DNA of 27,756 bases. Origin: a virus. A program made the position numbers and the translations under genes. How positions within the stretch are numbered: position 1 is the first letter of the stretch; each line of letters begins with the position of its first letter. The DNA lies in the IMG/VR virus record IMGVR_UViG_3300035703_000362, positions 1 through 27,756 of that record. One strand, given 5' to 3'. Positions 13,696-16,694 of this stretch are shown here, piece by piece. Below the pieces are notes generated by a model, which worked only from the letters and a program-made list of their open reading frames with translations, ran no database searches and had not been told where the DNA came from.

Positions 13696-13888
13696 GCTTG
13701 TCTCCTGAGAGCGCGGCCATAATTTCCTTGCGTTCGCGCACCGCACGCAGCGTCGTGTAGCGCTGGTGGATGCGCACCGCGTAGGTCGGGCGCTTGTGGA
13801 CCTCGACCTCCTCATCCAGCATGGCCTTGACCTGGTGCTCGTCACGCATCGCCAGAACCACGTTCAAATCGTGCCAATTCCAACTCAT
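13688..13888 (-). CDS. Small hypothetical protein
   Basis: 66 residues from the ATG at 13888, overlapping the helicase stop (ATGA). The sequence starts MSWNWHDLNVVLAMRDEHQV and contains a charged helix and a basic segment (RPTYAVRIHQRYTTLRAVRE). No domain recognised. Its position directly after the SNF2-type helicase and tight coupling suggest co-expression with it; an accessory role is possible but not shown. Confidence 0.62.
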   Translation of the reverse strand: MSWNWHDLNVVLAMRDEHQVKAMLDEEVEVHKRPTYAVRIHQRYTTLRAVRERKEIMAALSGDKHE

Positions 13889-15207
13889 CCCTTCAACTCC
13901 TCCAGTGCAATGTCCGATATGGCGCGCTTGTCGGCAAGGGCCGCCCAGATGCGCTCGTCGATGGTCTTGTTCGTCAGCAGGACGTAGACCCACACGTCGC
14001 GCGCCTGCCCGCTGCGGTGCAGACGGCCGACGACCTGCTCGTAGAGTTCCAGCGACCACGGCAGCGACAGGAACACCAGGTGGTGGCCGCCATGTTGCAG
14101 GTTGAGGCCGTGGCCCGCCGACTTGGGGTGAACCGCCAGCAGCGGAATCTTGCCCGCGTTCCAGCGCTCGATCACGTCGGCGCCGTCGTCCAGCGTCCAC
14201 AGCCGCCCCGGGTAACGGCGCTTCAGTTCCGCCAACTCCTCGATGAAGTTGTAGACGATCAGCGTATTGGCCCGCTGGTTGCCCTCCAGCACCTCGTCCA
14301 GCAGGTCGAAGCGGTGCGTCGAGAACCAGACCGGCAGACGGTACGGCCCGTTCCAGTCCACCGTATGGTAAACCCAACCGCTGGCCATCTGCTGAAGCTT
14401 GGTCGTGACCGCAGCCGCCGACATGGCGGTGATGTCCTTGCCCTGCATCTCAACCATGAAGTCGCGCTTCATCTTCTCGTATGGCTCGCGGTCGGGCATG
14501 TCGCAGCGCATCTCGACGACATGGCACGGCGGCAGCTTGTCCTTGTAGACGCCGGGCTCCAGCACGAACGTCGCCGGGCGGATGCGGGCCATCACCTGCT
14601 CCAGCGCACCGCGGCGCGGCATCCACTCGCCAAAGTCGCGGTTGATGCAGACGAAGTACTGCTGCATGAAGGCCCCCTTGGTGCGGCCCAGCAGCTTCTC
14701 GTCGATCACCTTGCACTGGCCGAACACGTCCTCCAGCCCGTTGGACGTGAACGAGCCCGTCAGGCCCCAGCGCACCTTGAAACGGTCCAGCACCTTGACC
14801 AGTGCCTTGAAGCGCATACCCGACGGGTTCTTGAGCCGGGTCAGCTCGTCGAAGACGATGCCGTCGAAGTCACCCTCGGGCATCTTGTCGAGGTTGTCGT
14901 AGTTGAACACGACGATGTTCACCTTGGCCGCGAACGCCGCCTTGCGCTGCGCTGCGCTGCCGATGGCGACCGCCATGGTCAGGTCGGGTGCCCACTTCTT
15001 GGCCTCGACCGGCCACACGTCGGTGCAGACGCGCTTGGGGGCGACGACCAGCCAGCGCTTGGCATGGCCGTCGCGCTTCATCTCGGCCATGGCCCGCAGC
15101 GTGATGGCCGTCTTGCCCGCGCCCACAGGGGCCAGGATCATGGCGCGGTCACGCTCGAACAGGAACGTCACGGCGTCGTTCTGGTATGGTCTAAGGGCGA
15201 GCGTCAA
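13885..15207 (-). CDS. SNF2/superfamily 2 helicase-like ATPase
   Basis: 440 residues with a TTG start at 15207, supported by GGAG 6 bases upstream. Superfamily 2 motifs are visible: LRPYQNDAV (Q-motif-like, 5-13), Walker A APVGAGKT (26-33), DEAD-box equivalent FDELTR (119-124), motif III LTGSF (149-153), and motif VI QVVGRLHRSGQ (391-401) preceded by SAGHGLNLQ. This is the compact phage form of SNF2-type translocases, lacking accessory domains; such proteins are implicated in replication or recombination. It overlaps the methyltransferase stop by 17 bp. Confidence 0.9.
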   Translation of the reverse strand: MTLALRPYQNDAVTFLFERDRAMILAPVGAGKTAITLRAMAEMKRDGHAKRWLVVAPKRVCTDVWPVEAKKWAPDLTMAVAIGSAAQRKAAFAAKVNIVVFNYDNLDKMPEGDFDGIVFDELTRLKNPSGMRFKALVKVLDRFKVRWGLTGSFTSNGLEDVFGQCKVIDEKLLGRTKGAFMQQYFVCINRDFGEWMPRRGALEQVMARIRPATFVLEPGVYKDKLPPCHVVEMRCDMPDREPYEKMKRDFMVEMQGKDITAMSAAAVTTKLQQMASGWVYHTVDWNGPYRLPVWFSTHRFDLLDEVLEGNQRANTLIVYNFIEELAELKRRYPGRLWTLDDGADVIERWNAGKIPLLAVHPKSAGHGLNLQHGGHHLVFLSLPWSLELYEQVVGRLHRSGQARDVWVYVLLTNKTIDERIWAALADKRAISDIALEELKG

Positions 15208-16378
15208 GGTAGGCTCCGATCACTTCTGCCGCTGCTTGCGGGACGATGGCATTGCCGTAGGCGCGCAGGCGTCCCACGCGGGCGGGAGCCCCATGAGCCA
15301 GCGGGAATGTGCCGGGTTCAACTGGCCGCCACTTTCCATCCCGGCAGCAGAGCCAGTCAGCAGCTCGCCAGTGGCCGTTAGTCGGGCGGGCTCCGTCTTG
15401 AGAAAGCCGATGTGAACCTGCGAGGCCAGCCCCATGTTCACCTTCCTGCCTTCCGGGTGCTGACCCGTCATCGTCGTGTCCGGGTGCGGGCGTTTGCCTC
15501 CGTTCCCGTCCGAGGCCGCTGGCGTGTTCCAGCCCGTCAGCATGTGCGCCTGTTTTGCTAGGTTGCTTTGAGACGCACCCGGCCTGTTCCATTCCCGTGC
15601 CATTGCTTCCGGCGACATGCGGCTCTGATTGTCGTCCTGCACCGATGGGGTGCCCCAGCCCGCCAAGTTCGCCTGTCTCGGCAGTTGGTCGAACCGCTCC
15701 GAGCCGTCCTCCCTCGGCCTGATGTCCGCTCCGCTGTCCTTCCAGTCCCTGGTGGTGGTGACCCAGCCCGCAAGGTCCGCGTCCCTCACCAGACAGGCGC
15801 AGCCGTGCTTCGTCCCGTGCTTCTCCTTCTGCCCGAGCGAGCGCCCCGAGGTGTCGTGCGCCTGTGGTGTCGTCCAACCTTTCTCCAACAAACCAGAGGC
15901 GCTGGCGGATGTGCGGGGCGCCGACGCCCGCAGCGCACAAATCGGCCGCCCCAATGGCGTAGCCCGATGCTTCCATGTCAGCGTATACAGCGTCGAGCCA
16001 GCCAAGACCGTCCTTACTCGCAACTTGCTCTCCAAAGACAACTGTAGGGCGGCACTCGCTGATGAGGCGATAGAACTCGGGCCAGAGGTGGCGCTCGTCG
16101 GCAAATCCTGCTCCTTTTCCGGCGGCGCTGAACGGCTGGCAGGGGCAGGAGCCGGTCCAGACGGGCCGGTCGTCGGGCCATCCTGCAAGACGGAGGGCGT
16201 AGGACCAGACGCCGATACCGGCGAAGAAGTGGCATTGCGTGTAACCCTTGAGGTCGCCCGGAGCCACGTCCCGAATTGATCTGTCATCTACGTCACCTTC
16301 CGCTATCAGTTTACTGTCGATCAGGTTTCGCAGCCATTGGGCTGCGTAGGGGTCGAACTCGTTATAGTATGCCGCCAT
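15191..16378 (-). CDS. C5 cytosine-specific DNA methyltransferase
   Basis: 395 residues from the ATG at 16378 (GGAG 8 bases upstream); an ATG eight codons earlier has no ribosome site. Motif I HFFAGIGVWSYAL (50-62), motif IV PCQPFS with catalytic Cys80 (79-84), motif VI-like FGEQV (115-119), motif VIII HIRQRLWFV (156-164) and a motif X-like AYGNAIVPQAAAEVIGAYL near the C-terminus. It transfers methyl to cytosine C5, probably guarding phage DNA against restriction. Residues from about 166 to 340 are a Gly/His/Arg/Ala-rich stretch unlike a normal fold; this is where a second frame on the same strand looks more protein-like. Confidence 0.88.
   Translation of the reverse strand: MAAYYNEFDPYAAQWLRNLIDSKLIAEGDVDDRSIRDVAPGDLKGYTQCHFFAGIGVWSYALRLAGWPDDRPVWTGSCPCQPFSAAGKGAGFADERHLWPEFYRLISECRPTVVFGEQVASKDGLGWLDAVYADMEASGYAIGAADLCAAGVGAPHIRQRLWFVGERLDDTTGARHLGALARAEGEARDEARLRLSGEGRGPCGLGHHHQGLEGQRSGHQAEGGRLGAVRPTAETGELGGLGHPIGAGRQSEPHVAGSNGTGMEQAGCVSKQPSKTGAHADGLEHASGLGRERRQTPAPGHDDDGSAPGRQEGEHGAGLAGSHRLSQDGARPTNGHWRAADWLCCRDGKWRPVEPGTFPLAHGAPARVGRLRAYGNAIVPQAAAEVIGAYLDARP
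15220..16287 (-). CDS. Overprinted second gene inside the methyltransferase locus, with methyltransferase-like C-terminus
   Basis: 355 codons in the +1 frame relative to the methyltransferase, fully inside it. The ATG at 16287 has a strong ribosome site (GGAAGG, 8-base spacing) and the stop lies 12 bases before the helicase start. Residues 1-135 are Ser/Pro/Ala-rich. Residues 136-262 hold four spaced GWxTP-like elements (GWTTPQAHD, LAGWVTTTRDW, LAGWGTPSVQD, LTGWNTPAASD). Residues 318-350 (ESGGQLNPAHSRWLMGLPPA, then WD..CAPTAMPSSRK) resemble the region around motif IX of phage C5 methyltransferases. I recall similar proteins in other phage genomes labelled hypothetical; translation is inferred, not proven. 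Confidence 0.62.
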   Translation of the reverse strand: MTDQFGTWLRATSRVTRNATSSPVSASGPTPSVLQDGPTTGPSGPAPAPASRSAPPEKEQDLPTSATSGPSSIASSASAALQLSLESKLRVRTVLAGSTLYTLTWKHRATPLGRPICALRASAPRTSASASGLLEKGWTTPQAHDTSGRSLGQKEKHGTKHGCACLVRDADLAGWVTTTRDWKDSGADIRPREDGSERFDQLPRQANLAGWGTPSVQDDNQSRMSPEAMAREWNRPGASQSNLAKQAHMLTGWNTPAASDGNGGKRPHPDTTMTGQHPEGRKVNMGLASQVHIGFLKTEPARLTATGELLTGSAAGMESGGQLNPAHSRWLMGLPPAWDACAPTAMPSSRKQRQK

Positions 16379-16635
16379 TCGTCTATCTCCGTCTTTGACC
16401 ATAGTATCGTGTAGTTCTGCTTGAGTTCCTTCATGCGGGCCGCAAAGAGCTTCTGGAGCGGCGATGGCCGCCCGCCGGGTGCCTTCAGCTCAACGAAGTG
16501 GACGGACCCGTCCGGCAGACAGGCGATGCGGTCGGCCACGCCGCGGTGGTTGGGCGACTTGAACTTGTAGGCCGTTCCACCCATGCGCTGCACCGTCCAG
16601 ACGAAATACTTCTCGATCTCACTTTCGCGTACCAT
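16321..16635 (-). CDS. VRR-NUC domain nuclease
   Basis: 104 residues from the ATG at 16635, spaced suitably after AGGA; a much longer open frame upstream is antisense to the nuclease gene on the other strand. The VRR-NUC fold of the PD-(D/E)XK group is indicated by HRGVADRIACLPDG with Asp35, then HFVELKAPGGRPSPLQ with Glu49 and Lys51 and Gln61. Stand-alone VRR-NUC proteins in phages are thought to cut branched or flapped DNA. First gene of the leftward operon; its 3' end overlaps the methyltransferase start by 58 bp. Confidence 0.9.
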   Translation of the reverse strand: MVRESEIEKYFVWTVQRMGGTAYKFKSPNHRGVADRIACLPDGSVHFVELKAPGGRPSPLQKLFAARMKELKQNYTILWSKTEIDEWRHTITSSTPTQPNGCET

Positions 16636-16641
16636 GACCAT

Positions 16642-16694
16642 CCTGTAACAAACAATGCTTGACAGGTCAACAAGAAATCTGTAACGGTTGACGA
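16642..16694. promoter_or_regulatory. Divergent control region with operator-like inverted repeat
   Basis: Between the leftward and rightward operons. TTGAC (16659-16663) and GTCAA (16666-16670) form a perfect inverted repeat with a 2-base centre, and another TTGACG lies at 16688-16693. On the minus strand TTGACC and TACAGG stand 17 bases apart (-35/-10 candidates for the VRR-NUC operon). On the plus strand TTGACA (16659-16664) lies about 17 bases before TAACGG, a weak -10. The repeat would overlap both -35 boxes, a natural place for the XRE-type regulator. Confidence 0.45.

Follow-up and report, generated by a model that had tools for sequence, protein, structure and literature searches.

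A gene in the +1 frame nested within a phage C5 cytosine methyltransferase gene and its probable role as the recognition half of the enzyme

The window, a viral sequence of 27,756 nucleotides (positions 1 to 27,756 of IMG/VR record IMGVR_UViG_3300035703_000362), carries a C5 cytosine methyltransferase gene that encloses a second long reading frame on the same strand (Table 1). An initial annotation of this DNA had described a 355-codon frame lying wholly inside the 395-codon methyltransferase frame, with a GGAAGG of its own eight bases before the ATG and a stop 12 bases before the helicase start, and the coordinates bear out each of these points. The sequence 5' of the inner start reads GGAAGG-TGACGTAG-ATG, to which we add AGGTGA, a stronger Shine-Dalgarno (SD) match than GGAAGG, 5 nt before the same ATG. 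The outer frame also has a longer form with an upstream start, and the outer proteins of relatives begin at the ATG equivalent to 16378 ('M.AYYNE'). The inner gene ends with a TGA at 15220-15222, and the downstream helicase gene, starting at the TTG at 15207, overlaps the last codons of the outer gene. On the upstream side, 16324-16674 (-) encodes a small protein that looks VRR-NUC nuclease-like by eye and gives no hit in Pfam at E 0.01. We saw no partner restriction enzyme beside the methyltransferase gene.

Table 1. Genes and protein segments of the methyltransferase locus, in window coordinates; residues are those of the respective chain.
Feature	Position	Strand	Remarks
Outer gene, C5 cytosine methyltransferase	15191..16378	(-)	395 codons from ATG at 16378
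Outer ORF, longer form	15191..16402	(-)	403 codons; longer start ATG at 16402
Outer residues 10-178, motifs I-VIII (FAGIGVW, PCQPFS, GEQV, IRQRLWFV)	15869..16375	(-)	folded; pLDDT mostly 85-97, dips 68-74
Outer residues 180-344, Gly/Arg/His/Ala low-complexity linker	15371..15865	(-)	pLDDT mostly 38-54, 64-71 at end
Outer residues 345-403, conserved C-terminal part with motif X	15194..15370	(-)	AYGNAIVPQ at 15236-15262
Shine-Dalgarno of nested gene	16293..16301	(-)	GGAAGG 16296-16301; AGGTGA 16293-16298
Nested inner gene	15220..16287	(-)	355 codons, +1 relative to outer, entirely within outer ORF
Inner residues 1-75, Ser/Ala/Pro-rich	16063..16287	(-)	overlies motifs I-IV; pLDDT mostly 43-62
Inner residues 76-122, helix and beta hairpin (SLESKLR...GSTLYTLTWK..TP.GRPICALRAS)	15922..16062	(-)	pLDDT 62-87 (blocks of ten)
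Inner residues 137-298, probable target-recognition region	15394..15879	(-)	4 [L]xGWxTPxxxD units
Inner residues 323-338, motif IX-like LNPAHSRWLMGLPPAW	15274..15321	(-)	invariant L, P, M, G, P, W in 44 sequences
SNF2-type helicase gene, downstream	13885..15207	(-)	TTG start; PF00176 E 6.7e-17, phrog_62 E 1.4e-120

The outer protein matches phrog_363 (E 5.9e-87) and PF00145 (E 1.2e-14). A Foldseek search with its model gave M.HhaI as the top match (E 3e-8), and M.HaeIII is also among the nearest folds, as is PDB 8yf3, a DNA cytosine C5-carboxymethyltransferase. The catalytic motifs I-VIII, which had been assigned to the outer frame, are indeed found there in a folded segment. PCQPFS and GEQ are invariant in the outer proteins of relatives; motif VI of C5 methyltransferases is usually ENV. 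As in C5 cytosine methyltransferases (PF00145), motifs I, IV (PCQ), VI and VIII stand together in this one chain. The target-recognition domain (TRD) and motif IX, which belong to the same chain in that family, do not: the outer protein is disordered and without purifying selection over residues ~180-344, and only the inner frame has a motif IX-like block. The low-complexity linker (180-344) results from reading the target-recognition region of the inner frame in the outer one, and its outer dN/dS is 1.26. Further on, W345, C353, D355, P360, G383, N384 and A385 are invariant, and AlphaFold places helices at residues 374-383 and 388-401, the C-terminal helix with motif X being predicted with confidence.

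A search of both frames against phage proteins, which the initial annotation had proposed, assigned the inner protein to phrog_1008 (E 1e-27; residues 16-346) and phrog_31772 (E 2.6e-35). Both families, like the outer phrog_363, are labelled 'DNA methyltransferase'; for the inner family this label is an annotation, and the PHROG library links the two frames nowhere. Sequence and profile searches returned no Pfam, NCBIfam or PDB relative of the inner chain, the Pfam search no HNH domain, and a fold search with its AlphaFold model, which is poor overall (mean pLDDT 58.8), no fold match. Residues 1-75 are kept open with little inner amino-acid constraint (inner dN/dS 1.92 over outer residues 47-110). 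The best-predicted inner fold is the helix and hairpin of residues 76-122, in which L85, L89, G97 and R120 are invariant; elsewhere the model is weak. The number of GWxTPxxxD units in the region that follows varies from 0 to 6 across relatives, and we would guess that these repeats are recognition modules. Near the end of the overlap, the same bases were said to encode a motif X-like AYGNAIVPQ in one frame and a motif IX-like block in the other. This is the case, and the inner LNPAHSRWLMGLPPAW is spaced like motif IX of HhaI, LHPRECARVMGYPDSY, a likeness of pattern over 16 residues; a profile of the block searched against the PDB found no methyltransferase. About 5 codons separate the end of the inner motif IX, at its tryptophan, from the YGN of the outer motif X, compared to ~13 residues between the matching points in M.HhaI, which makes it unlikely that a single chain combines the inner motif IX with the outer motif X.

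Openness alone is not evidence for a gene in GC-rich DNA, as the initial annotation itself cautioned. For this window alone, 6.8% of the synonymous shuffles keep the inner frame open, which makes for weak evidence, but the counts across relatives are far beyond chance. Eighty relatives were gathered by their outer protein without regard to the inner frame, and in each of them (80/80) no stop interrupts the +1 frame over the inner match. The stop counts were made on 55 non-redundant outer sequences, comprising 51 viral contigs found with the outer protein alone and 4 phage records from inner-frame hits. Compared to synonymous-codon shuffles, which preserve the outer protein and assume no other cause for motif avoidance, these relatives contain 3 stops in the +1 frame where 164 are expected, and the +2 frame is not depleted (713 seen versus 603 expected). 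Counted by position, outer residues 47-385 contain no +1-frame stop (about 151 expected), with 101 stops 5' of the nested start (65 expected), five in residues 43-46, and 25 stops 3' of the nested stop (16 expected). The edges of the stop-free zone are sharp at the nested start and the nested stop. Of 47 relatives, 38 have an ATG with an SD core at the expected position; the shuffles give 11.2 +/- 2.8, and none of the 300 exceeds 19. The ATG corresponds to outer residue 39, 45 or 49 and is often preceded by AAGGAG at 8 nt. We conclude that the nested frame is a genuine gene, started from its own ATG and SD, and that both frames are selected as protein.

Selection is shared out between the frames, with the catalytic motifs kept in the outer and the target-recognition region in the inner one. 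Substitution rates at outer codon positions 1/2/3, taken from frame-blind alignments, amount to 0.11/0.09/0.38 in outer residues 1-20, and this outer-like pattern extends to about residue 140; within the folded segment 10-178, only residues 141-160 depart from it, with a mixed pattern. Over residues 181-340, all intervals but one have the lowest variability at position 3, or there and at position 2 alike (e.g., 0.38/0.28/0.23), and a slowest position 3 is the signature of the +1 frame. Both frames are constrained in residues 341-380 (0.12/0.04/0.06 in 361-380), a zone that comprises the inner motif IX-like block and the outer run-up to motif X, and the outer pattern returns in residues 381-400, at motif X. 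The comparison of synonymous and non-synonymous change in both frames, also proposed in the initial annotation, gives the same division: dN/dS is 0.16 (outer) and 1.92 (inner) over outer residues 47-110, 1.26 and 0.64 over residues 179-340, and 0.54 and 0.42 over residues 341-380, although such values are mutually biased in overlapping frames and the contrast counts more than the values. Predicted disorder is complementary as well, affecting the outer chain at ~180-345 (mostly pLDDT <55) and the inner chain over its first ~75 residues. The remark that the inner frame looks more protein-like from ~15880 onward thus holds, with the onset slightly corrected to outer residue ~180 (window ~15865). 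Stops in homologues and a lack of purifying selection, named beforehand as signs against an inner product, were both looked for; 3 stops against 164 and an inner dN/dS of 0.64 point the other way.

The arrangement is not confined to GC-rich genomes. A second set of relatives, of lower GC (mostly 33-52% at the locus) and related to Paenibacillus phage Xenia, is nested likewise. It was chosen by the inner protein and is hence not blind to the inner frame; with this proviso, its 34 non-redundant loci contain 18 +1-frame stops compared to 226 expected. The inner proteins of both sets form one family (phrog_1008; hhalign E 1e-14), and the nested pair is found at 33-50% GC. It occurs in phages of E. 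coli (N15, K1ind1, Alma), Salmonella (epsilon15), Xanthomonas, Rhodobacter, Erythrobacter, Bacteroides, Paenibacillus, a cyanobacterium and an Acidobacteriota host, the hosts belonging to the Proteobacteria, Firmicutes, Bacteroidota, Cyanobacteria and Acidobacteriota. Apart from damaged copies, every relative in which both frames can be read across shows the nesting, and no intact relative with the inner gene only was found among the loci examined. Annotations suggest a free-standing inner gene in Komagataeibacter phage phiKX2 and Erythrobacter phages ZS04 and R6L, but each of the three also has the outer frame.

A number of relatives depart from the common layout. The methyltransferase gene of phiKX2 carries an insertion, an HNH-type reading frame (2001-2400), where motif IX borders on motif X; the outer frame reads through it and the inner frame stops just before, which resembles out-of-frame HNH insertions (PMC11855218). 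In Edwardsiella phage eiAU (1486-2898), no stop separates the inner frame from a downstream Dam-type N6-adenine methyltransferase (PF05869, E 1.4e-40), and the sequence may encode a fused inner-Dam protein. The outer frame is broken by a single TAG at a conserved Trp in relatives L142, L144 and L145 and at a conserved Gln in L052, with the inner frame open in each; this may be due to damage, suppression or sequencing error. The N- and C-terminal parts of the outer protein lie in different frames in Krischvirus LF73P4 (1486-2341), as do the two inner parts, due to either an indel or a sequence error. Finally, Dunaliella viridis virus SI2 (1419-1823) carries a remnant from which the catalytic region is deleted, the outer start being joined to the C-terminal part, with both frames open over the C-terminus.

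The same bases thus give two proteins, and these most likely constitute one C5 methyltransferase that protects the phage DNA against host restriction. The outer frame would supply the catalytic body (motifs I-VIII and X), with a disordered linker in the place where a TRD is expected. The inner +1 frame would be translated from its own SD and ATG without frameshifting; its first ~75 residues would be tolerated filler over the catalytic motifs, and the remainder would provide the conserved helix-hairpin, then the repeat-rich target-recognition region and then motif IX. Each frame would encode a working domain that the other lacks, and the filler over the other's domain would need only to stay open. 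The inner chain is most likely the recognition subunit, and the two chains would assemble into a single methyltransferase guarding phage DNA from host restriction. We infer this assembly, the methylation of DNA by the product and its specificity.

It is improbable that the inner gene encodes a real but separate protein (e.g., a regulator, an anti-restriction or a nuclease-related protein) unrelated to the methyltransferase reaction. The lack of detectable homology to known domains and the low confidence of the predicted inner fold would suit such a protein, but in nearly all of the loci examined the inner gene is nested in a methyltransferase, the part of it under selection corresponds to the domain missing from the outer chain, and it bears the motif IX-like block. 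The initial annotation had left the choice between a split enzyme and a fusion by a +1 shift. Of these, the split enzyme is supported by the own start and SD in most relatives, by the avoidance of stops from the start codon on, including the N-terminal part without inner amino-acid constraint, and by the complementary selection and predicted folding of the two frames. The fusion is disfavoured: a programmed +1 ribosomal frameshift near the VIII/TRD border, giving a single chain made of motifs I-VIII, the inner TRD and motif IX, would agree with an inner frame that is exactly +1 and with an inner-dominant region beginning directly after motif VIII, but we hold it to be very unlikely. It needs an open +1 frame only past the shift site, while stop avoidance starts at the nested ATG and the frame is already open upstream of such a site (0 stops versus about 60 in outer residues 47-145); the SD and ATG are conserved in relatives; and the fused chain would be devoid of motif X, on which selection still acts in the outer frame. 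An open frame that arose by chance in GC-rich DNA and has no product, to which the shuffles that stay open in this window alone would lend some credit, is contradicted by all cross-species tests (stops, ATG and SD, substitution pattern, dN/dS) and by the nested pairs at 33-50% GC, has a negligible probability, and is ruled out at the level of sequence evolution by the stop counts, the start/SD counts and the low-GC relatives.

Compared by description only, the nearest known enzyme appears to be the two-polypeptide M.EcoHK31I. The coding sequence of its small chain lies within that of the large chain, in a different frame, as is the case here. Of the two polypeptides of M.EcoHK31I (YGGCCR), the larger contains motifs I-VIII, X and a predicted TRD and the smaller only motif IX (PMC3404938). 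The phage pair resembles it in having two chains, a large one with I-VIII and X and a small one with motif IX, here by pattern only. It differs in that the TRD lies in the small chain, as judged from substitution patterns and folding, and in being phage-borne with no adjoining restriction enzyme seen. The two-subunit M.AquI is likewise split, with motif IX and a portion of the variable region on the second chain (PMC3404938), but its beta subunit also has motif X, which here is on the outer chain. A second frame in a phage methylase gene is also known from ShiLan, where an HNH endonuclease is hidden within an actinophage methylase (PMC11855218). That frame is an inserted homing element, whereas the present one is part of the methyltransferase gene itself; an out-of-frame homing insertion was rejected, as the nested frame occurs in all relatives, over the conserved catalytic region, and has no HNH or other Pfam domain.

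The arrangement is usually annotated as a single gene, since pipelines either retain only one of the frames or assign names to both by homology. The two overlapping CDS are both annotated in GenBank for E. coli phage K1ind1 (ORF28/ORF29), Paenibacillus phage Leyra (61/62) and Xanthomonas phage PhiXhv-18, in records that give no mechanism, and the RefSeq records examined contain the outer CDS only. In cyanophage Cy-LDV1 and Erythrobacter phage ZS04, part of the inner frame is annotated as a methyltransferase and the outer gene is missed; the annotation also has an antisense hypothetical protein, which is probably spurious. The ORFs themselves were already known from GenBank; new are the evidence of selection on both and the division of work. 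No account of this phage family as a nested two-chain enzyme was found in the open literature, the part covered by the search, so that priority is uncertain.

To our knowledge, long same-strand overlapping genes with selection shown in both frames are rare outside small viruses. The nested recognition frame would explain the low-complexity middle of the outer frame of these 'DNA cytosine methyltransferases', and it predicts that an enzyme expressed from the outer frame alone would be inactive or unspecific. The location of the recognition domain in M.EcoHK31I is worth re-checking in this light. We give even odds to the wider view of an ancient dual-frame gene, spread over phages of bacteria from at least five phyla, with two obligate halves of which the inner one would be exchangeable and the number of GWxTPxxxD units would set the specificity. 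The overlap is widespread, mostly invisible to annotation pipelines and apparently old, and the locus may serve as a natural system for the co-evolution of two proteins in one sequence.
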